DNA from: Bolinopsis microptera
Taxonomy: Eukaryota; Ctenophora; Tentaculata; Lobata; Bolinopsidae
Length of the DNA stretch: 64,000 bases
Assembly (NCBI RefSeq): GCF_026151205.1
Contig: NC_087077.1
Location: 10,097,983-10,161,982, forward strand
Direction of reading: 5' to 3'
Positions 9,229-36,100 of the stretch are shown here, piece by piece. Under the pieces are notes generated by a model that had not been told where the DNA came from, made no database searches, and was given only the letters and a program-made list of their open reading frames with translations. Each line of letters starts with the position of its first letter. Position 1 is the stretch's first letter. The position numbers and the translations under genes are program-made.

Positions 9229-9244
9229 ATACTGATGTATGACC

Positions 9245-9252
9245 ACCAAGTA
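9245..9252. repeat. Right target-site duplication ACCAAGTA
   Basis: Identical to 7535-7542 and directly adjoining the last base of the inverted repeat. Confidence 0.85.
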
Positions 9253-11110: not shown

Positions 11111-11120
11111 GTTAAGTTGT

Positions 11121-11262
11121 AAGTGTTGCTCTAACCAGAGCCCTCTCACTTGCAGTAGCGCGCGACCGCCGTAGGCGGCAAAAAAAATATTCAACTTGTG
11201 AAACAAGCGCGTCACGCAGTACGCGTATACACATGGCTATGTGAATTGTAAGTGCGCACGAA
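11121..11262 (+). repeat. Copy of a dispersed GC-rich repeat
   Basis: The sequence from GCTCTAACCAGAGCCC through GCGCGCGACC and AAACAAGCGCGTCACGCA to ACACATGGCTATGTGAATT recurs at 51119-51250 on the same strand. Parts recur inverted at 50863-50893, 51580-51632 and 51838-51892 and near 42940. An interspersed non-coding repeat; class not identified. Confidence 0.7.
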
Positions 11263-11485
11263 CCAACTATCCGTTTGCTTTGCCTGAAAGGTGTTCGCAC
11301 AACGAAATTATAATTTCTCGTCTGAAACTTCTCAAAAATTGTTTCGAAAATCGAACTGTCTAAAACAGCATGTTTTGTCAGTATGTATAAAGAGAATGCA
11401 ACAATATCCACATAATATGCACATATCCATTATCCACCTTTCGTCACCTGTCTTTTCCAGACGCCGTCAATGATCCAACTTTGAT

Positions 11486-11609
11486 ATGGAAGCCGTTCCA
11501 CGGCAGAGACTGACAAGAGCCTCCAAACAGAATCAGAGGGACTCAGAGCCAGAAACGGATCAGATGCTTGACCCCATCGATCAGTCATTTAACTGGGGTA
11601 TCATAATTG
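11486..11609 (+). CDS. Putative alternative first coding exon A of the membrane arylsulfatase
   Basis: ATG at 11486 opens 41 codons ending in a donor G|GTGAGT with phase 1, the phase required by the transmembrane exons at 29257 and 33112. The encoded tail is hydrophilic and charged (starts MEAVPRQRLTRASKQNQR, then acidic, ends FNWGIII). A pyrimidine-rich acceptor-like TCTTTTCCAG lies 27 bp upstream (to 11460), so a further 5' UTR exon is possible. An upstream ATG at 11470 has a stop after four codons. Joined to the body at 33112 it would give about 629 residues. The alternative is that it belongs to a separate small gene. Confidence 0.55.
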
Positions 11610-13613
11610 GTGAGTTATTACTTATTATAGACGATTTAATTTTCTAAATTTTCTTTACTCAATTTGTTACTTTGTTGTAAAAGTTGCCGTTTGGCGACAG
11701 CCTCTCTCTCCGCCAAACAAGCAGTACTAAAGAAGTAAAGAAGCCTCCGAGGGTCCTCAAGTAGTGCGAAAGTCTTTTTCTCGAACGGAATAATTTGCTT
11801 ATAATACCAACAACATGTTAGTGCTAATTACCCAATGAACAATCAGCACGTACTCAAATACTGACTGCTGGACGTGCTTCAATTGGACCACTGCACCGAA
11901 CTTAATGTAGGAAATATGTCACGTGGTTTAGTTCCGTGCTTATGATTGGTTTATTTCGGTGCGTTTGTACGTGTTATAAAAATACTTTAGTTTTTTACAA
12001 GCGTATTCTATTATACGGTGTATATAGGTTTAAATTACTTGTTTCGCCCGTGAAATGACTCATGTTTTCTTGTGTTGCCTGCATTCTCCTATTCGATGTG
12101 GCTAGTATTACACTTTAAAGCACTTTCATGAAAGAAAATTGTGACCGAAACTTGTCTGTATCCAATTGAAATTAGTACGCAATTCTGCACTAAAGATTGC
12201 AGCTTCAGTTCCTGATCTAACTATCTAGAAAACATGTATCTCCACTGAGTATACCAGATTAGGCACATAGCCGACACTAAACGAGGGTAGAAGTTGTGTT
12301 TACAGTTTAAGATGTTTCCTTGTATTCTGAAGTCTCATGACACATTATCCTCTCTTCAATGTCAGATCGAGTAATGTTTCATATAAGTAGCCTTTATTTC
12401 GGCAGCATTTTATTATTTTACGTACAAATTCTATTAAGATATTGAAAAGCCACACAAACCCAGCTTATTGTCAAATATAAGGAGTTGCCTGACAATTTGT
12501 GTCCTGATTTTTTAATACTTTCATCACTATTATATTATGACTAAAAAAATTTGAGATACAGATGGAATGTGTGCTTTTATTAAAAGTTTCTGATTCCATT
12601 TTAACTTAAAATCCTGCTCTGCTTCTTCCTGAATCGACTCCAGAGAAGAAAACTCGTTAAATCAGTTACTATCAGTATGCCTATAAGTATAAATGCCGAT
12701 GCGAACCAATCATTGTTTAGAACAATTTTATGATCTCCATTCTCCACAATTCCGATTCGTTTACAATTTATTGAGACCCTTAAACGTAAGTAAACACGGC
12801 GGGTGATACATTTTGGAACGATTTTAAAAACATAAATGCTCTTTTTTCACTGTTATCATGGCATCTCATTTAATATATTTTGAACTTTTTGCATCTTTTT
12901 GATATTAGAAAATCACTTTGAAATGTCAATTCTTTTGCAATGATTGTATTGGCGATTCTGGTAGGATACAAGCAATACGGAAAATAGCAAATCGCGGGTA
13001 GTGCAGCCATTTGCCTTTTGGAATTATTGCTGCTCTTAACATACTTCTCAGGCTCAAATTTGGAGCCTTTAGGTACTCTCAGGTTGGATTGTTCAACAGC
13101 GTGGCATACAAGGTTATAGTCTTTTGCTTAGATTCCTGGCAGTTCAAGATGTACATATAAATTTATAAAAATGATTCTACTATCCGATTTTTTCAATGTT
13201 AAAAATCTAATCATGAAACACGTTTAACCCTAACCATAGTTAAGGGCGTCAATTTTATTCAATTGTTCACAGCGATACCAATTACCAAGTACACAAATCT
13301 CAAATCTGATAGAACGAATAACGGCCGATGCAGGTGCAAAAAAGTACGGTATTAGGTCAATAGTGCGATTCCACACCCACTTATATGCTGACTCTTTCGC
13401 TGATGCACTTGTTTTAATTGAATTTATAATTATATGATTGAAATCCTTTTTGATTTGAGTTATGATTGAAAATAACTTTATTTTGCTTAACAAACATTTA
13501 AAAACATGAGAGTTTTGAGAAACCATTTAAAACTTTTGAGGTAACAGCCATTTGATTTAAACCATTCCCGAGTTTTCTGTAACCATGCCAATTAATGAAG
13601 GAGATCAGAAGAC

Positions 13614-13776
13614 ATGAATGTCGGTTCCCACGAAGAACCAGCTTCAAGTTCCGCTAAATGTGAAGAGGGAGTGGACACAGCTCCGGTGCCGAGGAGACTC
13701 CGTTTTCGTCTCCAAAGAGCCGCCACTCAACCCATCATTGACCTGTACAACAACTACAAGTGGGATCTCAAGGCTC
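13614..13776 (+). CDS. Putative alternative first coding exon B of the membrane arylsulfatase
   Basis: ATG at 13614 opens 54 codons ending in the donor C|GTGAGT, again phase 1. The tail has an acidic first half (EEPASSSAKCEEG), a basic RRLRFRLQR cluster and ends IIDLYNNYKWDLKA, which recalls the LYNWYKG segment in exon C. Joined to 33112 the split codon would read CAT. A competing ATG at 13618 in another frame gives a 75-codon ORF that ignores the donor and looks spurious. AGATCAG before the ATG could also act as an acceptor from exon A, but its polypyrimidine tract is poor. Confidence 0.55.
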
Positions 13777-16160
13777 GTGAGTAACCAGTCACTCGTTGTT
13801 GCATTTATTAAACTGAGTCAAAGAATTAGATATCGAACCAAATAAAGCATGTTCATTTAGCTATTCTCTTTTAGAATAACTCGTTTCGTAACTCGATGAT
13901 CAAATTAAAGTAACATTTTTTAGTTCATGTTATTCAACTGAATCATCGAAATTCAAATCAAGTTGCGCTATCACTATAGTTCGAACTAATTAGCTGTGTG
14001 TAGGGGGTGCACCATGAAAATAAACTTGCTCGGATTTTAAAAATTTTTGTACCATTGTTTTCTAGAGACTGTGAAAATTTTCACAGTACTAAATTTGTCA
14101 TACCTTTTTGGAAAGATCAGTGAGTTTCGTCTAGGTGCCATATTTGATGGTGCGCGGCTTTTGGAGCAAAATTAGCTGTAAAAGTCGCGTAATTTGACCA
14201 AATTTGACCAAATTCGTTGATTTTTGTCGTATTATTTGGATATATCTTCAGTTCCTTGAATAAGATCATTCTGAAAATTGGTGACGACCTTCCAATAGGG
14301 CTTTCACAACTGTCCGAAAAATTTGGTAGATATCGGGGTTGATATAGTGATCAAAATGGGGCAAAATACGCTGCTTTTAGCTGTAACATAATGTCTGATG
14401 GTTGGATATGCTTTAAACTTTTCGGACACTTTCCTTGTAAGTCTATGAGTAAGCTTACCAATTTTTGTTGCAATTAGAGGTCGGGAAAGATACTTAATAT
14501 CTATTTGTTTGAAGAAAATTGTGCTGGCCGAAATTAGCGCTAAAAAACCATCCTACAGTCGGCACGCGCGGCGCGGCTCACTGTCGATGGCGCACTACCT
14601 ACTGTGTGATATTAAAATTAGAAAATTCTGACCTTTTCTCGGGCGGTAAAAAATATGTTTATTCGTGCTTCAGTACAGACTGAGAGGCCCATGAATAAGG
14701 GCCGGTTTGATCACGATTTTGATTATATTTATGGATTATGAAGGAGCACATGTTTTAATTGCAAGTGGAGAATTTTCCTCGACTTTGAAACCATCCTAAA
14801 GTTTAAAATCTGTACTTGCATTTTCTGTAACTTGAAAATATGATTCGACTTCGATTTATATTTTAACCATTTGAAGGTTGTCCAAAGAGTTTGTAAAAAT
14901 GATCGATACTAAGATAGCAAAATAAATTAAGTCACCAAGTTATAACGCTACCTGAGGTGCCGTGTAGTTCTAAGTATGGAACTGGGAGTCGGAACTTTTA
15001 TATACTGATCGAGGATTGATTGTTATGGCGAACGAGATCAAGTTGATTAAATCAATTTTGGAAAGTTTCGGTTTTGAAAAAGATTAATTGTATCATTGCA
15101 GGGATTCAAATTATTGAACCGTATTTTTTGCAGCACCACCGTTTTCAGCGTTCTTTCTCGAACCATTTGTACTGTCTCTTTTAATATTGAATTTAGAGGA
15201 CACCAGGACTGTAAAATTTCATTATCCTATTCCCAAATTGGTTTGGGAAATCATCATGTGTGTCTCAGTATGTGTGTCTCGTGGCACCCGTGATAATTTT
15301 ACAGTGATGAGTAACTCAATTGTACTGACCACATATTTTGTTTGTGAGTGTCTTGTGGTTCACTTTCCTCCAGGACCAGCTTCAATCTGTTTAGAATTAA
15401 GATTTTCAAGCTTAAATCGCTATAACCGAAGCTTATATAAACTGTGGAACTTTGAAACTTAGCTTCCATTCGATCTCCATTTTTTTCACGAGATCATGTA
15501 ACCATAATAATTAAAATTAGGCTCTTTGACATAAAGGTCGCTTTGATGTAAACATGAACAGTTACATGTCCTCCGAGAGCAATACTAATGATGACCAAAA
15601 GGATGGATCTACGATCAAACCCTGGCACAAGACGAAACGCAAAAGATGTAAGAATTGAGGAATTTGTTATGATTATTTCCTGATTATTAATTACTACTGC
15701 ACTTGTAATCGTTAACAGCTTTTTTAGTCGTTTAAGCATGAAATATTTTTAATGTGACTACATGTAAGAAAGCATATCTATTGTCAGAAAATGAAATATT
15801 AGAATTAAGGCATCCTCTGTTCATTTCAGACCACTAATTTTCAGTTTACTACAATAAGAGTCAGGAATATCTCTTATTTCTCTTAAAATATCCTAAATCA
15901 AATAAACTGCAGCCTTATTAGACAACTAATCTTATGAAATTCATAATAAAAAGAGCTAAAATAGTGAAATGACTATAATTTCACTACAATTATCAGGAAA
16001 ATCTAAGTAAACTGTTGCACTGAACGTACGTCTTTCTGCGCTACCTAAATTAATTTTGTATCTCGTTTTTATCTTTCTGAAGCGGTACTAGGGTTGTACA
16101 TAATATTTTACGAATGATTATAACCGTTAATATTATTTAGAAAGTGCATTTGCTTTGGTT
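13777..16160. other. Intronic or intergenic stretch without recognised features
   Basis: No exon is supported here. The stretch around 14000-14640 reads like an old dispersed repeat, with a GC-rich patch (CGGCACGCGCGGCGCGG near 14560), but no boundaries could be set. Confidence 0.35.
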
Positions 16161-16161
16161 T

Positions 16162-16525
16162 TTAGTTTAGACTCTGTAGCTCAGACCTGCTCAGAGTGGT
16201 CTGTAGTTTATACCTGCTCAGAGTGGTCTGTAGTTCAGACCTGCCGATCAGAGTGGTTTGTAGTTTAGACCTGCTCAGAGTGGTCTGTAGTTTAGACCTG
16301 CTCAGAGTGGTCTGTAGTTCAGACCTGCTCAGGGTGGTCTGTAGTTTAGACCTGCTCAGAGTGGTCTGTAGTTCAAACCTGCTCAGAGTGGTCTTTAGTT
16401 CAGACCTGCTCAGGGTGGTCTGTAGTTTAGACCTGCTCAGAGTGGTCTGTAGTTTAGACCTGCTCAGAGTGGTCTGTAGTTCAGACCTGTTCAGAGTGGT
16501 CTGTAGTTTAGACCTGCTTACGCTG
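16162..16525. repeat. 27-bp minisatellite, about 13 units
   Basis: The unit begins GTGGTCTGTAGTTTAGACCT and continues GCTCAGA, with C/T variants and one 30-bp unit (CCGATCAGA). As 27 is divisible by 3, a 9-residue repeat ORF stays open on both strands (16162-16530 and 16196-16570). This is an arithmetic effect of the repeat, not evidence of coding. Confidence 0.93.
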
Positions 16526-16924
16526 GTCATTGGTCAACACAACATACCACTGTTGTATGTAGTATTTTGACCAGCGTCCTTTTTAGTTCTTACAGCGGTT
16601 TGCACTACAAACGCTGATCCGTACTAAAATCTCCACACTATTTTGTTGTGAGACCGGAAGTCTAAGTTACCAGTAATGAGTTGCCGCAATATAACAAAGT
16701 GACTAGGAATAAGCTACATGAGCATAAATGTTCACTCTAAATATCCAGCGGACAGTTTTATTTCACGGTACCTACGTTACACAGTTTGCTTACATTGCCT
16801 TGTATATGGGGTACGTAAGGTGTACTTATCCGTGTGTATCAGTTTATATTTTATGAGTCTGCTTCCTGCTGCTTTGTGTTCAGATACGTCCTTATTATTA
16901 AGCTAAATTTGACGACCTTACTTT

Positions 16925-17288
16925 ATGTCTACAAAAGAAAGATACAGGTACAGTGAGCTTCCGACAGAGCCAGTATCTGGTCATAGGAACATGACATCAG
17001 TAGAAGCAGAGGACATTGAATCCTCACCTAACAAATACGTCAACCTTCGTCTGAACAATTCATCAGAGACTGGGGGAACCGGAAGAGAGGTTCCAGAAGA
17101 CACTGGGATCCAGAGTAACATACAGCTGGATGTAGGAGAGATTGAGGAATCTGATGAATTCAAAAACACGACAATTCAAAAACTTTACAACTGGTACAAG
17201 GGTATTTTTGTTGGTTCCATAACGGATTCAGAGGTGGCAGGCATGATCAGCGCTTACGGAATGTCTCTCAAGACTTTCCGCGGTCACC
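16925..17288 (+). CDS. Alternative first coding exon C: 121-residue cytosolic tail
   Basis: ATG at 16925 opens 121 codons and the exon ends C|GTAAGTTCC (phase 1). The tail is polar, with an acidic middle, and ends in a conserved-looking block (TIQKLYNWYKGIFVGSITDS, then EVAGMISAYGMSLKTFRGH). This block is clearly homologous to the end of exon D, so the two arose by duplication of a first exon. It can splice in frame to the stop-containing transmembrane exon at 29257 or to the sulfatase transmembrane exon at 33112. With the latter the product is about 709 aa. Confidence 0.75.
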
Positions 17289-18017
17289 GTAAGTTCCATT
17301 TAGTTTTATTTAGTTTTATTTATTATTTGGAAGAGTGGTTTTCCTTTTATCACGTTCAACCAACGGAAATAAAATGTAATTCTGTTAAGTTCAAGTTGGA
17401 GAACATCTAAACATGGAGCTGGTCAACATTTCGCACTGGTCCTGTCAGTTACTATTTACATTCACAACTGGGTAGTATTCACCTTTAGTGTCCACGAGTT
17501 ACTGGGCAAATTTGTGTTAATGAATCTAAATCTGGGTTCTAACTTATGTGGGTATAGTGAGGCCTTGGAGAGTCGTCTTCAAGCACATTATCCCACGATT
17601 ATCTAGATTAGTAGATTACGAGAATAATCTAAGTCCAAATTACAACTACAACTCAAAATTACGTTGACCTCTACAGGATCTCCCAGCTTGAATTCCTCGT
17701 TTAAAATCAACTAATCACAGAGACGTAACCAATGGGTACACCCTCTCAGCACAACACCATGACACTTATGTCTAGAAGTTGTATTTATAGTGAACAATTA
17801 CGGGATAAGGCCTCATAACACATACAACATACTTAGATGTTTTATGTAAGCCTCTATGAACCATTCCGACAAGTTGTAAATTTGTTAATCTACCCTCCTC
17901 CGTTTGTCCTGTATTTCTGGTTGGGTAGTTGAGTTTTATTTCATCAAATAGTTGATTTCGTCAACGAAATAAAAGTACACTAAGCTACCATCTGAGACCT
18001 GATCAAGCCAGAGCAAC

Positions 18018-18309
18018 ATGACTTTAGTAGAGGACCTGGAAGCATCACCTGATAAACACATCCCCCTAAACCTGGACACACAACCTGTGGAATCAGGAGT
18101 AGCTGTTGAAGATACCATAAGTATCACAGAGCTGAACGGGGGAGAGCGGGTAGCGGACCCGGGGTCTAAGATCCGGACCTTATATAGACGGGTCAAGGGG
18201 GTGTTCGTGGAGCCTATCAGTGAAGAGGAGGACGATCGACTCACAGATAAGGAGGTGGCAGATATTATTAAAGCTTACGGAAGACCGCTCAGAACCATTT
18301 GGATGCATC
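18018..18309 (+). CDS. Alternative first coding exon D: 97-residue cytosolic tail, paralogue of exon C
   Basis: ATG at 18018 opens 97 codons and the exon ends C|GTAAGTTC (phase 1). It shares with exon C the start (VED-LEASPDK vs VEAEDIESSPNK) and the end (IRTLYRRVKGVFVEPIS, then KEVADIIKAYGRPLRTIWMH). Residues change but frame and splice phase are kept, which suggests selection on the protein. Joined to 33112 it would give about 685 aa. Confidence 0.75.
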
Positions 18310-18845
18310 GTAAGTTCTAGATTTGGTTTTTCTGTGTTGTTGTATTGGTCGGGGTTGAGGGGATACAGGGGATGCTGTAACAATACACTTAAATAACTAC
18401 ATAGCTACAACATGTTTTGTTGCAGCAAAATAGCGTAACTTTTGTTGTTTTTTTGGGAAATAAGATTTACTTGGGATTTTGAAACAACTGTTTAATCTTT
18501 TAATGAGGAACACGACGATTTGGGCACGGCAGGCTGCACATATAGTTCTATAAAAGTATAAACAGAAATTAAAATATTATATCAGGGTCGTCCGTAATAA
18601 GCATCGTATGTTTCATTGAATATTGAAAACTGCTAGACTATCGGTTTCGGTTTGTACCTAATTATTTTATGCATGAGTAGTTTAATGAACAGTAACTTAA
18701 TATTATATATCAACGGCTCAAAAATTGTGTATTAAGTGCTCACATAAAACTTTTAATTATGTTACACTAGAAACCCGCCGCTAGTCGAAAGCTTTGTTCG
18801 AGGAAATTTTAAGCATCAGTTATGTTTTAATTTCTCTTCATCATA

Positions 18846-19236
18846 TAGCCCCAAAACGATACTTTTTACCGCATCAAAAAATTTCAATCACAACCAAAGT
18901 TATAAATATATATAGGTATATAGCGTCATGAGGGTAAATGTGAGCTAGTTGTGAAATTCTGATATTTCAATCGAGAATGACAGTCAATTGAATTATTGCC
19001 AGGCAATTAAAATGTTTAACTGCGCAAAGTTATTTGCGTAATTAGAAAACAACAATATTTTTGTTGATTGTGTGTGCGCGGCGTCATGTCAGCATTGTGT
19101 GTAGCTCTAGCGAATTTAGTATCGAAAAAAAGTATCGATACTTTTTACTGCATCAAAATATTGCAATCACAAACAAAGTTATAAGAAGTCATAGCGTGAG
19201 CGTAAATGTGAGCTAGTTTTGAAATTATGACGTATC
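18846..19236. repeat. Diverged direct duplication of about 110 bp
   Basis: CGATACTTTTTACCGCATCA at about 18857 and CGATACTTTTTACTGCATCA at about 19135 each begin a roughly 110-bp segment running through ATCACAAMCAAAGTTATA and GTAAATGTGAGCTAGTT to GAAATT.TGA. The offset is about 278 bp. Probably two copies of an old interspersed element. Confidence 0.6.
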
Positions 19237-20149
19237 ATACAGCATAACAACACGCGTTGTTAATCTGTGGTTGCTCGCGCACGTGCATTTTTATCGTTGC
19301 TACGCAACAGCGCAGTAAACCTTTGCTTAAATAACGCCATTATTCTAACGATTATTTAACCTCACTTCCGACGTTAATTATAAAAAATCTAAAGCCTAAA
19401 TCAAAATTCTAAGAATGCTATAGCCTATTCCTATCCTTTTTCTACAACCCTGCTAAAAATGGCGAGGTTTCCATTTGCGAGCTGGGTTTGGCATCACCAG
19501 AGGGTCATTTTGAGGTCGATTTTCGGTGTTTTTTCTTCTATGTCCCCGTTGCCGGGGAAATTTCGTCAAGTTTAAAATATAATATAGATATGTGATAATG
19601 TGATATGTAAACAGGAAATTTTGGGTGTTTACAAATCATATAAAATAGTAAAGTCATTAGTTTAGGCTTTCAGGATAAATACTTGGAGTAAAGCAATATT
19701 GAAAATGACTAAGTTTGTTGATAAGTTAACTTCGGCGTGACCACAAATTATTTGTGCGGTGTGGATAAAATCTGTCAACACTATAAATTAGCTATAAATA
19801 CCCTGACTTACAACTAATATTGAAGATCATTAATACCGAATTTCGTACTTCTAATTACCTTTATACCTAGTCATCAAATTAAATATCATTTTTATTATCA
19901 TCATAGCTAATCACAGAGCATAACCACAGAAAATGTATCTCCACAAATTGTTGTTGACCGTGCGTTCTGCAGAATAAATTTACACCTAATCATTTTCCTA
20001 CTTTATTATTATGCCTGGTTAATCATCTTTGTTCCGCTTGTTTTCTGTACAGCAGATCAAACTTCTGAATGAATATGAGGGGAAGGCTGCGATCAATATT
20101 CAGCGATATGATAAATCTTTGTCAACATGGCCACGAGTCCGTTAATAGT

Positions 20150-20186
20150 ATGGACCATAACTTTAAACAGAAGATGAGAATTATCC
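20150..20186 (+). CDS. Possible sixth alternative first exon F (12-residue tail)
   Basis: ATG at 20150 opens 12 codons (MDHNFKQKMRII) ending in C|GTGAGTATT, a good phase-1 donor. The upstream frame is closed by stops (TAATAG just before). It fits the pattern of the other first exons but is too short to support on its own. An overlapping ATG at 20127 runs into a stop before the donor. Confidence 0.3.
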
Positions 20187-20349
20187 GTGAGTATTACTAT
20201 TAGATAAATTGACATTTTACATTTATGTTAAGTAAACTTGATGTTTTATGAAAGTATAAAGTTTATTCGGACACAGAAATATTAATATTTAGTGTTCGTT
20301 ATTCCACATGAATTCATCGACAAACAGTTTTATTCCAGTCATGTACAAG

Positions 20350-23300
20350 CTGCCCTAGCAACTAACGAACCAAATTGGGAATTATTCGAGCTCTAACCGA
20401 ACCAAATTTTATCTGTCAAATCTGCCTACCTGCCTAGGTCGATCCAGATGAAATCTGGAACGAGTTTCGTGTCAACGCTTCTCTCCATTTATCCCTATCA
20501 CACATGAGTAAACGCAGCTGGTCAGGTTCCAGTCCAGTGTCTTCAAGAAGGACGTCCGGGAAGGTCTTATGTGGTCGTCCTCGATAACGCTGGCCATAGG
20601 ATGGTTGCCAAAAAAGGAGTTGTTGAGCAGGTTGGTCCTGTAGACGATAGACATGTCCTGCAAAACGAAGTCTTCGTGTCTTTATAGTATCTGTCACAGA
20701 TGGAATCTTTCCGTAAAGAACGGAGTTAGGTGTATGTGATTTCCATGAGATACCAAAGACCCTTCGTAGCATTCTAGTATAAACACCGTCTAGTGCTCTA
20801 ATATCAGCCTTTTTAAGAGTCCAGGTTTCTGCACCATACAGCAGAACAGGTTCTACTGCAGTTCGAAAAATCTTAGTCTTGATCTTCCTAGACATATTAG
20901 ATTTCCAAAAAGCATCTAGACTCTGCAAAGCTTTCCATGCGAGACCTTTCCTGACATTGATGTCTCTGCTTGTTGAGGCTATAAAGGATCCAAGGTACTT
21001 AAAGTCATGAACTTCTTCTAAAGGGATGCCGTTAATAAAGACTCTATCGTCTGAGTTGGCAGGTCGCGGGATGTTATAGGACATGTATTTGGTCTTTTCG
21101 ATGTTAATAAGGAGACCATAACGGGCTGCTATGTCAGAAATGCTTTGGCAAAGGCGGCCATTTTCGCTGAAGCTGTCAGTAATTGTTGCTAGGTCATCGG
21201 CGAAGTCCAAATCAGCAATGTAGTTACTTCCAACTTTAAACCCATCACGTGGGCCTATTGCCAGTCTTAGTATGAAATCCAGGACGATGATAAAAATGAG
21301 AGGTGCAAGAACATCGCCCTGGAGAATTCCGAGGTTGGTAAGGAATTCTAAGGTTATCCCTTCAGGGGTCATGATTTTAGCCTTAGTGTTGATGTAGAGT
21401 GACATAATGGCTTTTATGATTTTTTTAGGAAAGCCGTAGGAAGCCAGTATGTCGGGAAGATGCGATCTGAAGATGCAGTCAAAGGCCTTTGAGAAGTCAA
21501 TAAAGGAGATGACACAAGGAAGCTGGAAGTTCACAACCTCTTCGATGATACGTCTAAGAGCCAGAATCTGTTCACGAGTCCCTCTTCCAGGCCGGAAACC
21601 ATTCTGGTTGTATCGTAGGCGAGGTTCTATGTGGCTCCTGATTCGGTTTAGAAGCAGCCTGTTGTAGATTTTCGTGGCAACAGGGAGGATGGAGATGCCT
21701 CTGCTATTTTCAGGACAAAACTTTTTAGCTCCTTTGGGTATAGGAAGAATGGCAGTGACAAGAAGCTCTTCCGGGGCTTTACCAGTAGCTAGCATGTTGT
21801 TGAACAGAGATAGTAAAGTAGTGTCCAAGTCAACACACTTGTACAGCAGAGAAGAAATTCCGTCATGACCGTACGTGTCCTTTGTCTGCTTGAGAGCTGT
21901 AGATAGTTCATCTGCTGAGAACGGTGACGTTTCAATTGGGAGTTCTGGCTTTTGGACTTCAAAGCTACCCATTCTGATGTTGTCAGCAGGATTGTAAAGC
22001 AGTTTGCTGTAGTGGTCAGTCCACGCCTTTGCTCGATCTGCCTTGTTTCTGTATCCAGGTAATTGAGACATAGATTTAGGCTTATGATTGGTAAGGTCAT
22101 TTATAAGCTTCCACGCAATACCAGAGCTGTTTGACTTCGTCTGCCATGCTGCATACCCTGGTTGGTTTGCGGGTTGCGGAATAAACAGCTGATCTACTTG
22201 ATCAATTGTCTTATTAACAAACGCTTCTTGTATGCTGGTTTCGACCTTCCTGACTTCAAGGGTGGCATCACGGAGGGCTTTAGTAGCAGCTCGTGTCTTT
22301 CTTTTGTGACTATCTTTCAACGCAGCATCTCGTGCCTTGACAGCAGCCCGGTACTCAGGATTAGATGAAATCTGAGCAGTTAGACTAGTCTTCTTCCTTT
22401 TGGGAAGTACTTTCTCTGCTGTGTCATTAATAGCACTTATCATGTTGGTGTATGCATGCTGGTTGTGTTGGACGAGGTCATCAGTCTCGTTCTCTTCATC
22501 CATTAAGGCAGTGAACCTGTTCTGGAGATGGAGTTGGAAGGCTGTTGAAGTTGCAGTGTTACTTTTTAACTCCTCCCAGTCATACTTGATTACCTTAGGT
22601 CGGACGATGTTGGTCCTTATTGACAGCTTGATAGTCGCTGTGACAATCCGATGGTCAGATTGAACCGAAGGATTAATGTATGACTCACAGTTTTTAAGTG
22701 AATTCTGCCATTTTGAGCGAATGAGGATGTGGTCATTCTGATGCAGTTGACCATTTGGTGCTGTCCAAGTCACCTTTTTAGAATGCTTTTTGTTAAACTT
22801 TAGCGCACCGATGGTGAACGCGTTTTCTTGGGCAAAATCGAGAAGATGCTGTCCGTTTCGGTTTGTACATTCATAAAACGCGTTGGTGTTGCAGGTGTCT
22901 TTTCCAAGGTGAGCATTCAGGTCGCCAGCTATAGCTACTACGTCATGAGGTGGAAAAGATCGGACACAAGAAGTTAACTCTGCATAGAACTGTTCAACTT
23001 CAAGGTCTGTAGATACATTAGTAGGTGAATGACAAGTAACTAAGTGTGTGCAAACTTCACCGGTAAAAGAAACAGACATTATCCTGTCTGAAAAGACGTT
23101 ATGGTCGATGTAGCAGCGTTGGGCCCAAGGGGAAAGAAGGAAGCCAAGTCCAAGGAGTGTTCTACTTTTAGGGGGAGGAGATGCTATGAGGAACTTGTAG
23201 CCATCACGCATTATATAAGGAGTCTTCTTAATACGATGCTCTTGAAGAGCAATCACAGGTATGTCAAAGGTTTTGGCTTTGCACACAAGTTCCCATTGCT

Positions 23301-24030
23301 TCCATTCTTCAGTGAGAGATCTTACATTATAAGTAGAAAGGTAAAAGGATTCTGAGATTTTTTTGTTAATTTTTGGTTTTTTGATGGTCCTTCTTTTAAC
23401 CCAGATACCATCAGCTGCTTTTCTCCCCAAAGGGTTTAAAGGTGCAGCGTCATCATGAGCTGGACTATCAGAAGGAGAGGTAGGGGCTGAAGCCCTAGTG
23501 CTGTAGTTGTTTAGTTCGTTGTAATGTTGATAAACGGGTGCGTGGCAATAAACTTTGCGAGTACCAGAGTAAAGCTAGGGGTTGGTAGCCCACTAGCAAC
23601 AAGTCCAAGATCTCAGGCAACTAAAAATGACTGATAAGAGAACTGAGGGTCTGCAGCCACACACAGACAGTGAGGGAGAGTAAAATAGGGGGGTTTTGTG
23701 CCTCAGTACACAGAACCGTAAGTCATCAAGCTGCGAGGAGTTTCTTACAGCAGAAGTAGGCTAGAAACTCTGACATCAACATGTTTCTAGTTAAAAGGGA
23801 GAGTGTTCTGAATAACTCTGATGGCCAGACTGCCATCTTGATGTCCGCTGGAAGTAGTGCGCTTGTCGCATCTGCCACTCAGCATACCTGCAGCAGGCAG
23901 GATCCTCTGAAGCTTTTGCTACACGGCGTTAACTGTATCCGTGCATTACCATTCCCGGGTGTCAGTAGCGCGAGTCTACTGCTCGGACCCACTCCTATCC
24001 AGAGTGAGGAACAAAATCTGACTTCTACAA
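20350..24030 (-). mobile_element. RTE-type LINE, apparently near full length
   Basis: A minus-strand LINE with one long uninterrupted endonuclease plus reverse transcriptase ORF (separate entry). Downstream of the TAG at 20434-20436 is only a short 3' UTR with a GGCAGGTAGGCAG-type short repeat. Upstream of the ORF, 23580-24030 looks like its GC-richer 5' UTR. Outer limits are approximate because no target-site duplication could be fixed by eye. The ORF is undamaged, so the insertion is probably young. It lies in the intron between sulfatase first exons D (or F) and E, in antisense orientation. Confidence 0.8.
20434..23578 (-). CDS. Endonuclease-reverse transcriptase polyprotein of an RTE-clade LINE
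   Basis: More than 1000 codons are open without a break. The N-terminal APE-like endonuclease shows LQEHRI, AIAGDLNAH and a terminal SDHRIV. The reverse transcriptase follows with SFIDFSKAFDCI, ILQGDVLAPLIF and the catalytic FADD in LDFADDLATI. The C-terminus has LLYGAETWTLKK, RRVFGISWKSH and RRLRFAGHVYR with GRP, typical of RTE-like elements. The enzyme would nick target DNA and prime reverse transcription there. No ATG is in frame upstream of the endonuclease; the frame is open back to a TAG at about 23577. Translation may therefore start at a non-AUG codon or be coupled to an upstream ORF, or the true start may be lost. The first ATG lies within the endonuclease domain, at IMRDGYKF. Confidence 0.92.
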
Positions 24031-24199
24031 AGTCACCAAAATGCATGATTTGGGAACTATACATTTAATTTTATGGGCTTTAGTGTAATTAACTGTATAA
24101 TGTATTTTATCAGATGCATTTGTGGAGAAGGTGGTCTACTTGCACCTTTTCCACATTATATAATTCAGGTACATTATAGTGGATATGGGTTGGGATTAA

Positions 24200-25546
24200 G
24201 GGGGCATACCCCAAATCTGTCCAGACCTAATGACCTCATAGGCAGTTCAGTGACCTTCTAGCGCACCGTTTCCACACAAAAAAATTATTTTGAGAATTCC
24301 CATTTTTGTAATCGACCATTTCCTGGTTAAGAGTGCAATTTTCGGAAAAAATTATTTTGTGGTTGAGACGCTATAAGTTAATCATTTCTTGCGGTATCGG
24401 GTTGAAATTTTGCTCGCCGTTTATTCACATCTATGTCAAGGTGTGTGTAAAATCTTGATATCGTATCTAAAAAGGCTGGTGTGTTATGAATTTTTAAAGT
24501 CAAAAAGCTAAAATTGTCCTTTTCAGGCTTATTTTAACAAAAAGTCAGTCAGGGAAGATCGGATTATTTGATGCTTGACATCAAATTGTTCTCTGAATTC
24601 TGGCGCAGTTTTTGATGCCCTCAAAAATGTTTTTACTCATTCACCTCCTGATCTATTGGACCTCAAAGCCAAACAACAAATTTAGGCACATTTTTCGTTT
24701 TTAATATTTACTGATTTTTCTAAAATTTTGATAGGAATGTACTAGTGACTTTTTGAAGGGTGAAAAATAACCGCAACTAGCACATTTATATATGAGTTAT
24801 GAACAACAAAACACCCTAAAATGCTTCCCTTTGAAGTTATGGGAGAAAATGTGATTTTTTGGCATTGCAGATAAAAAATCACATTTTCTCCCATAACTTC
24901 AAAGAAAAGCATTTTAGGGTGTTTTGTTGTTCATAACTCATATATAAATGTGCTAGTTGCGGTTATTTTTCACCCTTCAAAAAGTCACTAGTACATTCCT
25001 ATCAAAATTTTAGAAAAATCAGTAAATATTAAAAACGAAAAATGTGCCTAAATTTGTTGTTTGGCTTTGAGGTCCAATAGATCAGGAGGTGAATGAGTAA
25101 AAAAATTTTTGAGGGCATCAAAAACTGTGCCAGAATTCAGAGAACAATTTGATGTCAAGCATCAAATAATCCGATCTTCCCTGACTGACTTTTTGTTAAA
25201 ATAAGCCTGAAAAGGACAATTTTAGCTTTTTGACTTTAAAAATTCATAACACACCAGCCTTTTTAGATACGATATCAAGATTTTACACACACCTTGACAT
25301 AGATGTGAATAAACGGCGAGCAAAATTTCAACCCGATACCGCAAGAAATGATTAACTTATAGCGTCTCAACCACAAAATAATTTTTTCCGAAAATTGCAC
25401 TCTTAACCAGGAAATGGTCGATTACAAAAATGGGAATTCTCAAAATAATTTTTTTTGTGTGGAAACGGTGCGCTAGAAGGTCACTGAACTGCCTATGAGG
25501 TCATTTGGTCTGGACGGCACAAACCACTGTTTTGGGGTATGCCCCC
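24200..25546. mobile_element. 1.35-kb near-perfect palindrome flanked by TTAA (piggyBac/Kolobok-type MITE)
   Basis: The ends are GGGGGCATACCCC and its reverse complement, each directly flanked by TTAA (24196-24199 and 25547-25550). The two arms, about 650 bp each, are reverse complements over almost their whole length. The short spacer lies near 24860-24872 (GGCATTGCAG between matching TTTT and AAAA runs). The right arm has a small extra segment near its outer end (GGCACAAACCACTGTT). No ORF of note. TTAA duplications are characteristic of piggyBac and Kolobok transposases, so this is probably a non-autonomous derivative moved in trans. Confidence 0.85.
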
Positions 25547-25550
25547 TTAA

Positions 25551-28020: not shown

Positions 28021-28023
28021 TTC

Positions 28024-28152
28024 ACACTTTACAGTCTCACTTTACAGTCTCACTTTACGGTCTCACTTTACGGTCTCACTTTACGGTCTCACTTTACGGT
28101 CTCACTTTACGGTCTCACTTTACTGTCTCACTTTACAGTCTCACTTTACAAT
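28024..28152. repeat. 13-bp minisatellite, about 10 units
   Basis: The unit is CTTTACGGTCTCA, with CTTTACAGTCTCA at both edges and one CTTTACTGTCTCA. Homogenised central units flanked by variant units suggest recent expansion from the middle. Confidence 0.93.
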
Positions 28153-29256
28153 CCCTTGCTAACTTGAAACTTCTGAACTGCTTACACGATTGATGTATAC
28201 CTCCGGCCAGCTAGTCCGTGTTTTTTTCTTACAGCCTGATCATTACTTAGTGATACTGATCATAATTAACATATCAGCTACAAAATTTGAGGATTTATAG
28301 TTCATATAGTGAATTAGGGACTTCATAACTTTTAAACTTCTAGAAGTAAAGGACGGTGATAGCTATAGTGCAATCTATTGTACAATCTAGGGTTATAATT
28401 ACACATACCTTATTGAGTATTTCTATTTTATTAGATCTCAGTAAAGCTACAGTTCAAACAGATATAAGCGATAAATAGTGACATCTATCAGTTAACTTAG
28501 TCTAACGTGAAACCTCAATCTCTACGCATGCTGAAGCGTGCGTCTCTGAGTATGATCAAATTAGGAATTACGCTGGAAACAGTCTGTAAGACTGTAAAAG
28601 TTTGAAGGAACATGACAGATTGAACTCCAAAACTGAAGAGATCTCGAAAGACTTCTCAGTACCCATAAAGTTACAGAACGCTAGTCTGAAACTGAACATA
28701 ATTATCACCTAGATCATTCATTAAAACGTCCTACAAACATCAAGGAGGGAAAATATTTGTATCACTAGATGGTGTTAGACTACGTTTTTCAGCAGCTGGA
28801 TTATATTTTGAGGATGTTATACCATGGCTTCCCTGACAAGTCGGTAACCGTCATATTTTATGATTTCCGTCGAAGGTTCAGCTTCTGATTTTAATTTGGA
28901 ATTTCAGCGGAGGCATTTTTAATGTTCATTATAAATTCACATAGCAGGCTAGGAAGTTTTCCAGCGTTGATTGACACGCGGTAAACATTTTGATGTGACA
29001 ATCTAAGTGCTGTTTTAAATTGTACGCGTTACTGCTTTGATTTTTTGAAACTAACGTTACATATTGCTACTTATTTCAGTTACTTGTAATTAAATTAAGT
29101 CAAAATATTCTAAGTTTTCTCAATAATTACCAAATATTTTGACATTTCAAGTACCTCTAGAGCACTAGTATATCATTCATTCAGTTGGGTTTGAACGCTG
29201 AAATGTATATTGTATACCGTTAACATTTGAATTTTGTAAATGCATTATCTTTCCAG

Positions 29257-29363
29257 GCGATCTAAGTGCAATCCATAAAACTTTAGTGGTTGTGATTGGA
29301 CTTTTGGTTTTTGTGGGTTGCTTAGAGCTGACCACTATGAAACAAACTAAGCTAAAGCTATAA
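29257..29363 (+). CDS. Putative alternative terminal exon: transmembrane helix followed by a stop
   Basis: After a good acceptor (ATCTTTCCAG) the frame read in phase 1 gives DLSAIHKTLVVVIGLLVFVG, a 17-19-residue hydrophobic helix, then CLELTTMKQTKLKL and TAA at 29361. First exons A-D and F have the matching phase-1 donors (C|GC = Arg for most), so splicing here would give short tail-anchored or single-pass proteins without the sulfatase domain. AATAAA follows at 29434-29439. The hydrophobic segment plus correct phase is suggestive, but the exon is short and without transcript support. Confidence 0.5.
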
Positions 29364-29433
29364 ATCTCTCAGACGAAAGTTAAAAATAGCAAGATTAGTC
29401 TACCCGGAAATTAGGGAAGCAAGATTTAACTAA

Positions 29434-29439
29434 AATAAA
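29434..29439 (+). terminator. Candidate poly(A) signal AATAAA after the stop-containing membrane exon
   Basis: AATAAA lies 71 bp past the TAA at 29361-29363, a normal spacing for a terminal exon. Confidence 0.4.
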
Positions 29440-31816
29440 TTCCAATTGTTAAATTGAATTGAAAACAAGTGCCCGCCATTTAAAGATAGTTGTCATGGCA
29501 AAATCTATAAGATTGAAAAGTTCATCGACATTTTATAAGCTTTAGAACATTGAATTTAGGTCGGACGTAAATAAGTTAGATAAATTAAATAACTCAATAC
29601 ATCTAACCGTTTCCAAGAAACGGTTTGCTCCGGTCTCTTATCTTCTTATTATAATTAACTTTAAAACATAGCGATGTTGAGCTCTTGTTTAAGCTTATTA
29701 AATTGACAACATAGTAATTTTGTGCTCTTGTTTAAGCTTATTAAGTTAACAGCATAGTAAATAGGTGTTGAGCTTGTCATAACTTAATCTTTACAAAAAC
29801 CTACTATATACTGTGTGTAAGACAAAAAGTTAGTAAAATAACTTAAATAAATAAATGCACGCTAGGTTTAAATTTATATTTTAAGGCAAAACAAGCCCAT
29901 AAATTGTAATATAATCACCATAGAAACTGGCTCACAACTTATTAACTTTTATTATATAGTTGTCCCATAAAACTATAAAATGATCCGCGAAGATCACAAG
30001 GAAAGGTGTAAATTCTTGAATTGTGATAAAGGTGTTAAACGTTTGTTCAATCCTAGACAGTGTCTTCATTTAATTCCATACAAAGTTTGAATAAATCCAA
30101 CATATTCTGCTCGGTCATTAATACGGCTCTCTCTCTTTCACTCTGCATTACTCTATCAGTACTTAATCAAATTAGACATCAATTTTCGACTAATCAGTGC
30201 TTCCGTTTTCTCAGCCAATTTTTCCTCACTTCATTGCTGTAGATCAGTAATCTCTGCAGTTGATCACTTCTTGATTTTATAATTTAACTAAGAATTGATT
30301 GTGACTTTTAGCTCATCAACCTGTGACTATAATATTATAAATTTTGGTTTAACCATCCATACCGCACTTTTGTAATTGTACTGAATTTCTATTTCCGTGA
30401 ATGTCACATTATTACGCTAAAATTGTGAGATAGTTAACAAATCATAACCAAATTCACACAACTTCGGTTGCTATCCTTCTATCGTTAGAACAACTCATCC
30501 CACTATACAACACGACACAATATATTGTGACTGTGTGTCGTGTGACTGTGTGTCGTGTGGAGCTGTGTGACTGTGTGTCGTGTGGCTGTGTGTCTGTGTG
30601 TGACTGTGTGACTGTGTGTGACTGTGTGTGACTGTGTGTGACTGTGTGTCGTGTGACTGTGTGTCGTGTGGAGCTGTGTGACTGTGTGTGACTGTGTGTC
30701 GTGTGACTGTGTGTCGTGTGGCTGTGTGTCGTGTGACTGTGTGTCGTGTGGCTGTGTGCCGTGTGACTGTGTGACTGTGTGTCGTGTGACTGTGTGACTG
30801 TGTGTCGTGTGACTGTGTGTGACTGTGTGTGACTGTGTGTGAAGGACTCTGATATACAGGATATGCAATTTATCATCAGTTTGCATATTTGGAAGGTATC
30901 GCATCAATTAGTAGTGCTAACACCTTAGCTCTCTGGTAAATTGGCCAGTCAAGGTATACCTTATTTCTCGAACTGTCGTGGAGTAAATGAAACAGCACGG
31001 TGTAGACTGCCACCACACAGCTTTGATAGTTATTTCTCTGCAGACTCTAATATATATATAATATATAGTAGCTGTATGTTTGGAACTTTCCTGTTTTTGT
31101 TGGATTTTCTCTCTACTTTTCTAACAGAAGCTTAACATGCGCCGTTTTGTCGTCGTTGAAAGTTTAAATGGTGTTGAGGAAACAGGACGTAACTGAAACT
31201 CATGTAGGCAACCATATATAACGAAATAAGATATCTCACAGAACTTTGGTTGGCTTTACTTTCACTACTTACTTTCACTCTTTAAGTTATTTTTAATTGG
31301 ACTCTAATTGTAGTCGCCGTGTTATGTTGGATTTTCTCAAGCTTATAAAGTTATGAGTCGCGACTGTCGTAATTTTGAATTTGTTTTGTCGGTAACGATA
31401 CTTTTAATTTAGAACTATTAGAGTCACGGCTACGCTAGCGAAAATTGTAGAGTAGCCTTGAATAACAACACCGAAGAAATTGTTATGTTGCAAATATGGT
31501 CAATGGGTATTGGGACACATTCACATCACTTTTGACTTTGTTTTTTTGGGCAAATTTCTATTGATCCCGTTTGATGCGACAAGGAAAAGGCTCTTGGAAC
31601 ATTTCAACTATGCGACTTATAGATTATATTCCAATCCAGATTTTACATGAACTTTTGACTTTCTTTACACATTTAATTCTTCATTTCATCCAGCTTTTCC
31701 CACTCTAAAAGTGTCAAATAAATAACCAGGAAAGTGCTAAAAAAGGGGCTGGACAACTTTTAGCCGTACAGAATGTGAAAATAACGTGACAAAGTAGCTA
31801 AAGTTGTCCCAGAGAG
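29440..31816. other. Gene-free intronic stretch with a complex GT-rich repeat
   Basis: No supported exon. GCTCTTGTTTAAGCTTATTAA is directly repeated at about 29680 and 29727. The only large structure is the GT-rich repeat at 30526-30842. Confidence 0.4.
30526..30842. repeat. Complex GTGTGACTGTGTGTCGT minisatellite
   Basis: Short blocks GTGTGACT, GTGTGTCGT and GTGTGGAGCT alternate for about 315 bp. Long ORFs rich in His-Thr-Ser on the minus strand (30454-30907) are read-through of the repeat, not genes. Confidence 0.92.
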
Positions 31817-31928
31817 ATGGGCAGCCAGATATTTGAGAATGAGGAGGATGGGCTGACTAAAGCTGAGAGGGAGGACATGACCCCCTGGCAGAGGTGGTGC
31901 GGCTGCAAGAACAGTCTGGAGAGGAAAC
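31817..31928 (+). CDS. Alternative first coding exon E, nearest the sulfatase body
   Basis: ATG at 31817 opens 37 codons and ends AAAC|GTAAGAG in phase 1. The tail is charged and ends CGCKNSLERK, with a Cys pair that could be lipidated. Splicing to 33112 completes a CAT codon and gives a 625-aa type II membrane sulfatase. As the closest start it may be the default promoter's first exon. LTKAEREDM recalls LTDKEVADI in exon D. Confidence 0.75.
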
Positions 31929-31939
31929 GTAAGAGTTGC

Positions 31940-32090
31940 ATTTCTAGGTTATATTTGTTATGTTTTTGTCATATTTTGGTTATATTTTTGCCTTTTGTCA
32001 TATTTTTGCCATATTTTTGTCATATTTTTTTCATATTTGTGTTATATTTGTCGTATTTGTCATATTTGTGTCAAATTGAAATACGACAAA
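31940..32090. repeat. T-rich short tandem repeat in the intron after exon E
   Basis: Imperfect 11-13-bp units of the type CATATTTTTGT/GCCATATTTTT follow the donor closely and give a long pyrimidine-biased run. Confidence 0.75.
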
Positions 32091-32280
32091 TTGTAGTTTT
32101 AAACTAATTACAACACTACAAATCTATTACATTTATTGAGAATTATGTAATGTAACGTGATGGAAATATTTTAAACGGGCATATCCTGTCCAAACCCAGG
32201 ATGCCCTACATGACATGAAGAATTCGTTGTAACTTTGTTTGAAAAGCATTAATGCACTTAAATTGTTATATGAAATTACT

Positions 32281-32363
32281 TAACGGGTGATACTCGTAAA
32301 ATATTTGTTCGACCGTCGACGAGTCCAACTCGGCGCGCGTCCTGGTAGGTTATAAACCTACAA
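32281..32363 (+). repeat. Copy of a short dispersed repeat ending in a palindrome
   Basis: It begins CGGGTGATACTCGTAAAATA, continues with GACCGTCGACGAGTCCAACTC and ends GGTAGGTTATAAACCTAC, an 8-bp-arm hairpin. Related copies lie at 50897, 51340 and 52879. Confidence 0.75.
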
Positions 32364-33111
32364 GAAATTACCAATATTGTTCCCCGAGATATTGTCGGGT
32401 TTGATACATCATTTTATGGTAGAATTTGCCTTAGCATATATCTGATGCTGTTTAATAATTCAATATAATCAGTAGTTTCAAATGATTTCTTGAGCTTTTG
32501 TCGCGTTTGGTAACATTTTGTTGTGGAGAATGACGAACATTTTGTTAACTTCAGCGAGTCATAAAATACAAATTTCCACATTTTTTATCAAAATTTGGAC
32601 CTTCGGCCATTTTAATTTTCATCAATTATCATGTTAAAATCTAAAATTAAAATCGTTCGAGTAAATTACAAATAATTATTAGTTGGGATGTTGCAAAATT
32701 TCAGTTCGAGTTGGAGCAAAGTTCCAAACCTGGACGAGCTGCATACTTAAATATTTCTGAACTTTTACAAAGAGGTTTTAAAAATAAGTTTTTAAAGCAG
32801 TATTTTCATAGACTTGGAGACTGTAACGATTTATTTATCAATTTATCGTTTTAGCGTACAAAATAAACTTTTAAACTAATTTTAGGGTATAATTCTTAAA
32901 GTTCACAGTTTCTTGGAACTGCTTTTCACGTACTTGTTATAAAGGTCCTGGAACTCGCTTTAAAACAGGGCTTTTGAGGGAACTTTCCTCCAGTCCTCCT
33001 ACTATAAATTTGATTCCAGTGGAAGAAGAGTGAAGACCAAAACATTAATTATACAACCTCTCAGTAACATTGCTAATTTTATGAACACTCATTAACATTG
33101 CTAATTTTCAG

Positions 33112-36100
33112 ATTACATTCTACTGTTCCTGTGTATAGTGATAGTGGTAGCAGTGACCCTCTCCATCACAATCACATCCTTAAGCAAAAGTGTTCACAAG
33201 GTTTGTTTTCACTAATTAGCTAATTGTAGTCGTGCTTTTTATAGTAACCTTATTGGCCCTAATTATTTATTTTGCCCGATTAGGACCGGAGTTTGCAGGC
33301 ATTCGGAGAAACCGCTGTAAATTGGGGTTCATCCGGTACATCACGGTTATTAATGTTCGCATAATCTGATAATATTTAAATTAATCAGAATTACTTTTCC
33401 CAGGAAGGAAAGCCTCACGTGGTATTGGTTATCGCAGACGACATGGGCTACAACGATATCGGATACTACAACCAGTTCGGGGACATTAAAACTCCGCACC
33501 TCGACAAACTTGCAACGTTCGTAATTAATTGTTCAGTTAAGCTAGCAATATTTTTAAGAATTTACCAATACAAAAATACGAATTACGATTAATTGCCCAA
33601 TTCTATCATGACTCCTGTCATTAGCTGTACAAATAAAACTCTCCCAGGGAAGGAGTAAGACTTGATAGATACTACGGACAGTCTATCTGTACTCCAGCTA
33701 GAGCAGCACTCTACACTGGACGATATCCTTATAGGTAAGTCCATCTGTACTCCAGCTAGAGCAGCACTCTACACTGGACGATATCCTTATAGGTAAGTCC
33801 ATCTGTACTCCAGCTAGAGCAGCACTCTACACTGGACGATATCCTTATAGGTAAGTCCATCTGTACTCCAGCTAGAGCAGCACTCTACACTGGACGATAT
33901 CCTTATAGGTAAGTCCATCTGTACTCCAGCTAGAGCAGCACTCTACACTGGACGATATCCTTATAGGTAAGTCCATCTGTACTCCAGCTAGAGCAGCACT
34001 CTACTGCACTGGACGATATCCTTATAGGTAAGTCCATCTGTACTCCAGCTAGAACAGCACTCTACACTGGACGATATCCTTATAGGTAAGTCCATCTGTA
34101 CTCCAGCTAGAGCAGCACTCTACACTGGACGATATCCTTATAGGTAAGTCCATCTGTACTCCAGCTATAGAGCAGCACTCTACACTGGACGATATCCTTA
34201 TAGGTAATTCCATCTGTACTCCAGCTAGAGCAGCACTCTACACTGGACGATATCCTTATAGGTAAGTCCATCTGTACTCCAGTTAGAGCAGCACTCTACA
34301 CTGGACGATAATATGTAGATAAGAACCCAAATTAAGAAGTAAAATACTTGAAGTAATGTACTCTAAGATAATTAGGTGTCTGTAAAAGTATCAAACGAGG
34401 AGATCATTAAATTGAATTTGTCTGATTTACAAGTTAAATACCTAATAAGCACATATAATAATATATGATTCAATATAATTTATAATATAATCTCAGATAA
34501 TTCTTGATATTTGTTAATCCACGAACTCTTCAAAACGCAGCATTGAGACAGTCATTAAAATATTCTTCTTATTAAAGTATTAATAGTTGTTCTCGACAGG
34601 TTTGGTCTGCAGGGAGCTAGACCTATTTTGTATGGTGCCAAGTTGGGTTTACCAACAGAGGAAAAAATTCTACCCCAGGTCAGATTCTGCCGTTTCTCAT
34701 ATCTTTACTGCACTGAAAGTTTCTCCCTTTTACAATTTTTAACCAATCGAAGTAAAAACTAGCACGTTCCTGATTATGGAATACGAAAATTCAAATTTGT
34801 CGTTTTCAAAATCTATTATTCTATATTACATTTCAGATCATGAAGGAAGGAGGATATAACACTTATTTAGTGGGGAAGTGGCATCTTGGTTATTCTAAAT
34901 GGGATTACACCCCCATCAAGTAGGTAGCTTTTATAATGAACACTGAACTATGTATTTCATGGAATAATCATTTTTTCTGCATTTATATGCAGCATCGACA
35001 GAGTCCATTCATTTCATGGACTCATAACTTCCTGATAACTTGATAAGAATACCCCGTACCCAACTTCTCATATAAACACTTCTACCAGGCGAGGATACGA
35101 TTACTTCTTTGGGATGTACGGAGGATTCTCCGACTACTTTACACACATATCCGCTGAACCTGAGAGCCCTGATAACTCAGCTTTTGATCTTCACGAACAC
35201 TTTGAGAAGGATATTCAAACTGGTTAGATTCTCACATTGATAAGTCTTATATTGGTAAGAGAAAGGGGCACATTTCGAATCCGGCCTTTTACAAGATGAT
35301 ATATCTGAGATGAAACGTGATTTGTTATAGCCTTGATATATAATTAAGACTTTATCATTTGATCAAATTAAAATGGTCTTAAAAATTTGGATATGGTATA
35401 GAAGATAACGTGTAGTGAACTACCAGCTCTGTACTGTATTAAAACAATTCTCATCTCAGATGGGACAGTTGAGGAGACGGATAAACAGAATATAAAACTA
35501 ATCAAAGATACGTGGCTGGAGTATTCAGAGAAGCTTTTCACAGATAAAGCAGTACAAATAATCCAGGTAATTATAGCTTCTGGATTATGCTCTGCAGTAT
35601 TAAAACTACAACATCATAATCCGATGCAGAGAGATGGTGCTGCAGTGCCGTGCTTTTTTAACTGTTCGTGAGGTACAGAACAGTGCCGAACAAAAACATT
35701 AATGGACAATTGCGTCACAATTTTGACTAGAAAGAGTAAATGTTAATTTATTCTATCAGCACATAAAAGTATTCCTAATTGTCAGGATCATGAAGCCGAG
35801 AAGGGGTCACTGTTCCTAACAGTCAGCTACATGAACCCTCACAGTCCACTTCAAGTCTTAGAGGACGACCTGAGGAGGGTCCCTTCAAACATCACTAACG
35901 AAGTGAGTTTAGGGGAGAAACTAATTTTGTCAGTCGTATTCAATGTTGGTTTAGAGCAGTGGCGTAACAAAGGGCCCCGCCGACCCGCTGTGCGGGAGGG
36001 GCGGTAAAGATTTTACCGGCGTATCCTCTAAAATCATTTAATTTGTTCAATTTTAGGGAGGGGCGCCAAAAGGGGAGGGGCGCCAACAGGGGGGCGCTTT

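Follow-up and report, generated by a model that had tools for sequence, protein, structure and literature searches.

In the ctenophore Bolinopsis microptera we describe an arylsulfatase gene ahead of which stand several exons that each begin with an ATG and end at a donor of the same phase. We read it as one gene for a type II membrane arylsulfatase, in which mutually exclusive tail-coding first exons are joined to a common helix exon, and give this reading a probability of about 0.58. The gene lies in a window of 64,000 nucleotides (C6:10097983–10161982), the whole stretch of DNA analysed, whose positions are used below. The genome searched was the 264.65 Mb assembly of 232 contigs; 13 chromosome-scale scaffolds and a 1n of about 254 Mbp have been reported for the species (PMC10232365).

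In the proposed arrangement each first exon would contribute a start codon and a cytosolic tail of its own and, through a phase-1 intron, would be joined to the common second exon, which carries the transmembrane helix, while the luminal or extracellular sulfatase domain would be constant across isoforms. The exons upstream of 31817 would be spliced to 33112 and would have transcription starts or spliced-leader sites of their own, and the tails may alter the destination or binding partners of the enzyme. Of the first exons that such a design requires, 31817, 16925 and 18018 are clearly coding and agree in donor phase. We establish the join of the 31817 type in relatives, and the coding character, phase and duplicate origin of 16925 and 18018; the exons at 13614, 11486 and 15554 are likely, if weaker, further members. 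An earlier, sequence-only reading had drawn attention to the locus. Its observation of phase-matched ATG exons ahead of a sulfatase is real and is confirmed with the corrections given below; its interpretation, alternative tails on one sulfatase, is partly supported.

The arylsulfatase body and the first exon at 31817

The sulfatase body consists of 12 plus-strand exons (33112–37935), placed by tblastn of two related proteins, P0001 and P0002, together with splice-site placement. All 12 stand behind AG acceptors, with GT donors at the 11 introns between them. The common second exon (33112–33200), behind a phase-1 acceptor at 33111/33112, encodes the helix ILLFLCIVIVVAVTLSITI (mean Kyte–Doolittle hydropathy 3.13 over 19 residues), and is followed by eleven further arylsulfatase exons at 33404–33516, 33648–33734, 34600–34678, 34837–34919, 35089–35222, 35460–35566, 35786–35902, 36307–36430, 36649–36885, 37035–37193 and 37499–37935 (stop included). 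Pfam places the sulfatase domain PF00884 in the body at 188.3 bits (cutoff 25; E 2.6e-55), and the earlier claim of a helix exon leading into a full arylsulfatase holds. By sequence the closest solved structure is N-acetylgalactosamine-4-sulfatase (1fsu, E 9.5e-77), with which body residues 33–429 align such that the CTPAR site region and the ADD, GKWH and DNGG motifs line up. The alignment holds CTPAR, which we take to be the formylglycine site and which has the form C-x-P/A-x-R, and ADD, GKWHLG, NPHSPL, DNGG and SKW, presumably metal or catalytic motifs. These features point to an S1 formylglycine sulfatase of ARSB-like type, probably with enzymatic activity and a type II orientation.

Relatives were drawn from the best 120 of 1108 matches; among the matches listed, the best named relative is P0002 of Mnemiopsis leidyi (76% identity over 86% of the query). 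By eye, eight paralogous loci in the genome (L001 to L008) have signal-peptide-like starts within one open frame, and two others (L020 and L022) have a phase-1 acceptor ahead of a helix exon. Two of these sulfatase genes carry a minisatellite across a splice site. In the window a 58-bp minisatellite (33680–34310; 10.8 copies, 97% match) repeats the end of the CTPAR exon plus its splice donor; only the first donor should work, since reading through a copy meets a stop. In the paralogous membrane sulfatase L020 (C6 near 2.20 Mb), the repeated unit, of 57 bp (72 copies, 2559–6692 of that locus), comprises the splice acceptor and the first part of the helix exon.

The exon at 31817–31928 (plus strand) encodes a tail of 37 residues and ends at a phase-1 GTRAG donor with a His junction. 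The relative P0001, 656 residues long, comes from a contig of 2,466 nucleotides, too short for a gene of 6.1 kb, and is therefore taken as a spliced, intron-free sequence. Its tail differs from that of exon 31817 at 3 of 37 residues (92% identity) and meets HYILLFLC exactly where donor 31928 and acceptor 33112 join (H|YILLFLC). The tail of P0002 has diverged (38% identity) yet can still be aligned and has the same joining point, so that the 31817-type tail is conserved in both relatives. P0001 remains open for 31 codons upstream of its ATG, through a short repeat whose last part is like the window sequence before 31817; this is as would be expected of an untranslated leader. By these comparisons 31817–31928 is a real first exon, its tail joined to the helix exon. 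The earlier claim that tails are spliced to the helix exon stands for this type, while the junction of the upstream tails occurred in no protein found.

Upstream exons of the same form

Five more candidate first exons, all on the plus strand and all with phase-1 donors, lie upstream. Two have strong coding support: 16925–17288 (121-residue tail, His junction, codon score 28.6) and 18018–18309 (97 residues, His, 22.5). Support is moderate for 11486–11609 (41 residues, Asp junction codon GAT, 6.4) and 13614–13776 (54 residues, His, 8.8), and weak to moderate for 15554–15647 (a basic tail of 31 residues, Tyr, 4.4). The last of these was overlooked by the sequence-only reading, which otherwise had its coordinates right: 11486, 13614, 16925, 18018, 20150 and 31817 each run from an ATG to a phase-1 GTRAG donor. 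Its possible sixth exon at 20150 does not hold up, as the open frame there begins at 20069 (20069–20186; plus strand, phase-1 donor, His junction; 39 residues from 20069, 12 from 20150) and scores 0.1, no better than chance. The tails are, as it said, mostly hydrophilic, with the exception of 11486, which ends FNWGIII. When spliced in silico to 33112, the exons at 11486, 13614, 15554, 16925, 18018, 20069 and 31817 each give one open frame of 619–709 residues, and an in-frame stop stands 0–24 nucleotides upstream of each of the seven ATGs. About 400 bases ahead of exon 16925 there is a 27-bp tandem repeat (16173–16518; 12.7 copies).

Codon scores were mapped on both strands using 13 training open reading frames (ORFs; 17,895 bases) and a threshold of 9 bits. 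Between 9 and 33 kb of the plus strand, outside a long interspersed nuclear element (LINE) and its edge (an island at 23609–23680), islands occur only at 11486, 13614, 15554, 16925, 18018 and 31817, and all six of these exons end at phase-1 GTRAG donors. Within 11486, 16925 and 31817 the map also marks three short stretches in a different frame. The minus strand is free of islands above 9 bits at 8,559–20,478.

A scan of plus-strand positions 9000–33111 for stretches of at least 25 residues from an ATG to a phase-1 GTRAG gave 12 candidates, five of which (11486, 13614, 16925, 18018 and, at 11.0, 31817) reach 4.5, a cut-off set after the scores had been seen; 15554 is just under it. Controls were both strands of 22 loci (403,422 strand-bases), which overlap the training loci. 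They yielded 72 candidates, from which the 34 inside ORFs of at least 180 residues were dropped, a rule that would drop no window exon (the longest open frame, at 16925, has 165 residues). Six of the 38 kept reach 4.5, with a maximum of 11.1, and some look like exons of other genes. In three further window stretches one LINE ORF reaches 4.5, and one minus-strand stretch of 25 residues scores 4.4, equal to 15554. The expectation is 0.36 against at least four besides 31817, a Poisson chance of 5e-4 given a post hoc cut-off and controls that overlap training loci. Counting 16925 and 18018 alone (at least two), the chance is 0.05; these two are the only exons above every control, and both score at least twice any of them.

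Exons 16925 and 18018 are homologous (E 5.7e-8). Over 87 aligned codons they are identical at 47, 58 and 32 of the first, second and third positions, and the proportions of nonsynonymous (pN) and synonymous (pS) differences are 0.41 and 0.69. It is the second half of the alignment that makes the difference (0.35 vs 0.86). By this comparison they are diverged duplicates, and the pattern is compatible with two coding exons constrained in the part close to the helix. Searches of the genome at E<=10 matched 16925 to itself, to 18018 and to one further sequence at E 6, whereas the 18018 DNA, 13614, 11486, 15554 and 31817 matched only themselves. A motif common to 13614 and the 16925/18018 pair, LYNxYK, was considered and is not significant. 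In 5.1–7.2 kb upstream of five multi-exon paralogue loci (L017, L018, L019, L020 and L022) there are 0–2 phase-1 candidates each, none tail-like by eye; the first exons of L017–L019 were not located in that scan.

The junction gives a further view of these exons. The acceptor exon begins AT, so the last base of the tail exon fixes the joining residue. Five tail exons (13614, 16925, 18018, 20069 and 31817) end in C and give His, the residue that P0001 and P0002 have at this point; 15554 ends in T and gives Tyr, and 11486 ends in G and gives Asp. C precedes GT at 4 of 6 upstream donors (5 of 7 with 31817) and at 1 of 11 body introns; among all GTRAG sites in the window it does so at 16% (of 92) and 14% (of 86) on the two strands. 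The binomial chance of 4 of 6 is about 0.014 at a rate of 19%, in a count that takes in 20069, itself without support; descent of the exons from a common ancestor would account for the shared base as well. Over their last 15 residues, six of the seven tails carry a net charge of 0 to +6 (+6 in 15554), and 11486 carries −3. An in-frame phase-1 acceptor is missing ahead of the ATG in 11486, 16925 and 18018, which therefore cannot be internal exons of a phase-1 chain, and is poor in 13614, 15554 and 31817.

Competing explanations and neighbouring elements

Several observations weigh against tail exchange on a single gene. The 31817 type is the only tail confirmed by relatives, and the only Mnemiopsis protein among the matches listed has a tail of that type. 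Proteins with upstream tails were sought twice, with none found at E<=10 among 3197 candidates (six tails joined to the body, region 1–383) or among 2514 (five tails, 321 residues, leaving aside 20069 and the first 23 residues of 16925). This silence is weak evidence, because the search needs exact five-residue words and even the Mnemiopsis tail shares only 38%. The scores of 11486, 13614 and 15554 fall inside the control range; in the codon map they stand at 9.2–10.7, and like-sized islands occur elsewhere, e.g. at 6482–6559 (11.3). The candidate at 20069/20150 is not coding-like and not distinguishable from chance. The 16925/18018 alignment is uncertain over its first half, and there pN (0.48) hardly differs from pS (0.52). 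A pairwise similarity between 18018 and 31817 (P 0.005, one of 28 pairs) fails correction, and comparing the profile of the 16925/18018 tails with that of the 31817 type gave no match (probability 0.2). The acidic flank of 11486 before the helix conflicts with the positive-inside rule. Nor does phase alone single out 33112, which the sequence-only reading had taken for the sole downstream phase-1 acceptor: body exons 35460, 36649, 37035 and 37499 share that phase. Joined to one of these later exons, the product would lack both helix and catalytic site, and relatives use 33112. The first intron would be up to 21.5 kb long, and would hold both the LINE, an uninterrupted LINE-like reverse transcriptase ORF of 1046 residues (PF00078; 20434–23574, minus strand, between 18018 and 31817), and a long inverted repeat (24278–25455) with arms of 583 nucleotides, 99% complementary and 12 nucleotides apart.

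Much of this would also follow if only 31817, perhaps with 16925 and 18018, served the sulfatase, the others being first exons of unrecognised genes, decayed remnants or chance ORFs. We regard this as possible, if rather doubtful. The confirmation of 31817 alone and the control-range scores of 11486, 13614 and 15554 favour it, as do the junction residues of 11486 and 15554, which are not His, and the acidity next to the helix in 11486; nested intronic genes are, moreover, numerous in the ctenophore Hormiphora (PMC8527503). It has to contend with the lack of any other plus-strand coding island up to 33112 outside the LINE and its edge, and with exons that are all of phase 1, have open frames and good donors, and belong to a kind of candidate commoner here than in controls. 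That the upstream exons are instead spliced onto 31817 through an acceptor at 31814/31815, adding tails rather than exchanging them (tail-Gln-MGSQIF...), is highly improbable. Exon 18018 does stay in frame when joined to the AG ending at 31814, a fit met one time in three by chance; the pyrimidine tract there is poor, a better CAG at 31812, which would break the frame, precedes it, and the leader-like short repeat before the 31817-type ATG in P0001 is unlike any upstream tail.

A variant that overlaps our reading would have the tail chosen by spliced-leader trans-splicing: one long pre-mRNA would start at an upstream promoter, the leader could be attached ahead of any tail exon, and cis-splicing of that exon to 33112 would follow. 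We consider it unlikely, and quite unlikely the outcome in which a comb jelly, by adding the leader to any tail exon of one transcript, would need no separate promoters to produce a family of cytosolic tails for this enzyme. Of the Iso-Seq reads of Hormiphora, 56% carried the leader (PMC8527503). Pyrimidine-rich acceptors lie 25 nucleotides before the 11486 ATG and 41 before that of 16925, while 13614 and 15554 are without a good acceptor close to the ATG. Genes resembling spliced-leader RNA genes are clustered on C13 of this genome: at four loci (L035–L038) between 12.81 and 12.90 Mb GT follows ACAAATTAATTTGAG, and no fewer than three others, at 12.79–12.85 Mb, have one mismatch to it. The 15-base pattern was itself taken from the Hormiphora leader (PMC8527503), so that the match is not independent; what is independent is the likeness of the flanks at the four loci to one another and to the rest of the Hormiphora leader. 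Allowing up to three mismatches makes the pattern unspecific (1755 forward matches vs 1262 for the reversed control), and a shorter form of it has no exact copy within the window. By sequence, the C13 cluster looks like ctenophore spliced-leader RNA genes.

The next downstream membrane gene, encoding a gamma-glutamyltransferase, was considered as a target of the tails and set aside, its helix exon having by eye a phase-0 acceptor. This gamma-glutamyltranspeptidase gene spans approximately 54471–58623 on the plus strand (PF01019 at 57298–57489) and may have a small first exon, of phase 0, at 54471. At the other end of the window a 45-bp minisatellite (1–3105; 69 copies) has long open frames (DKKLLVTLLYHPDNW repeats) and extends upstream in L033. 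Rfam gave no match at gathering thresholds.

Known designs and the meaning of exchangeable tails

Sulfatases edit sulphated sugars and are usually regarded as soluble proteins or proteins with a signal peptide; ARSB has a signal peptide and is soluble. The present enzyme shares a 1fsu-like body with arylsulfatases B, I and J but begins with a tail and a membrane helix. The design proposed for this gene is that of ECE-1 (PMC2567069) and DPP6 (PMC3366920), membrane proteins whose cytosolic end is set by alternative first exons or promoters, and with them it shares a common helix second exon (here 33112–33200) with a fixed acceptor phase (here phase 1). ECE-1 is a zinc metalloprotease with proven isoforms (ECE-1a–d; PMC2567069), while the present gene encodes a sulfatase with six supported tails, one of them proven through relatives. 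DPP6, an auxiliary channel subunit, has proven transcripts (PMC3366920), and the upstream exons here are known from one genome. By likeness to ECE-1 (PMC2567069), the tails may affect trafficking or signalling.

The sequence-only reading knew of no such arrangement for a sulfatase, which is too strong: the human sulfatase gene STS also has several alternative first exons with alternative promoter use (PMC4591525). Its variants, unlike those proposed here, are reported to encode the same active protein, with heterogeneous signal peptides, and the consulted part of that account describes no alternative cytosolic tails. Our literature searches found no paper on alternative first exons in ctenophores, and none joining alternative first exons, cytoplasmic tail and type II membrane protein as terms. 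Exchangeable cytosolic tails on a sulfatase would be new, a new case of the known ECE-1/DPP6 design.

If tails are exchanged at this gene, it would offer a clear test case for alternative first exons combined with trans-splicing in ctenophores, where leader trans-splicing is common. Should the leader itself set the choice of tail, protein diversity would here arise independently of which promoter is used. More broadly, with exchangeable tails an early-branching animal would be controlling the site of desulfation by first-exon choice, as vertebrates do with ECE-1.

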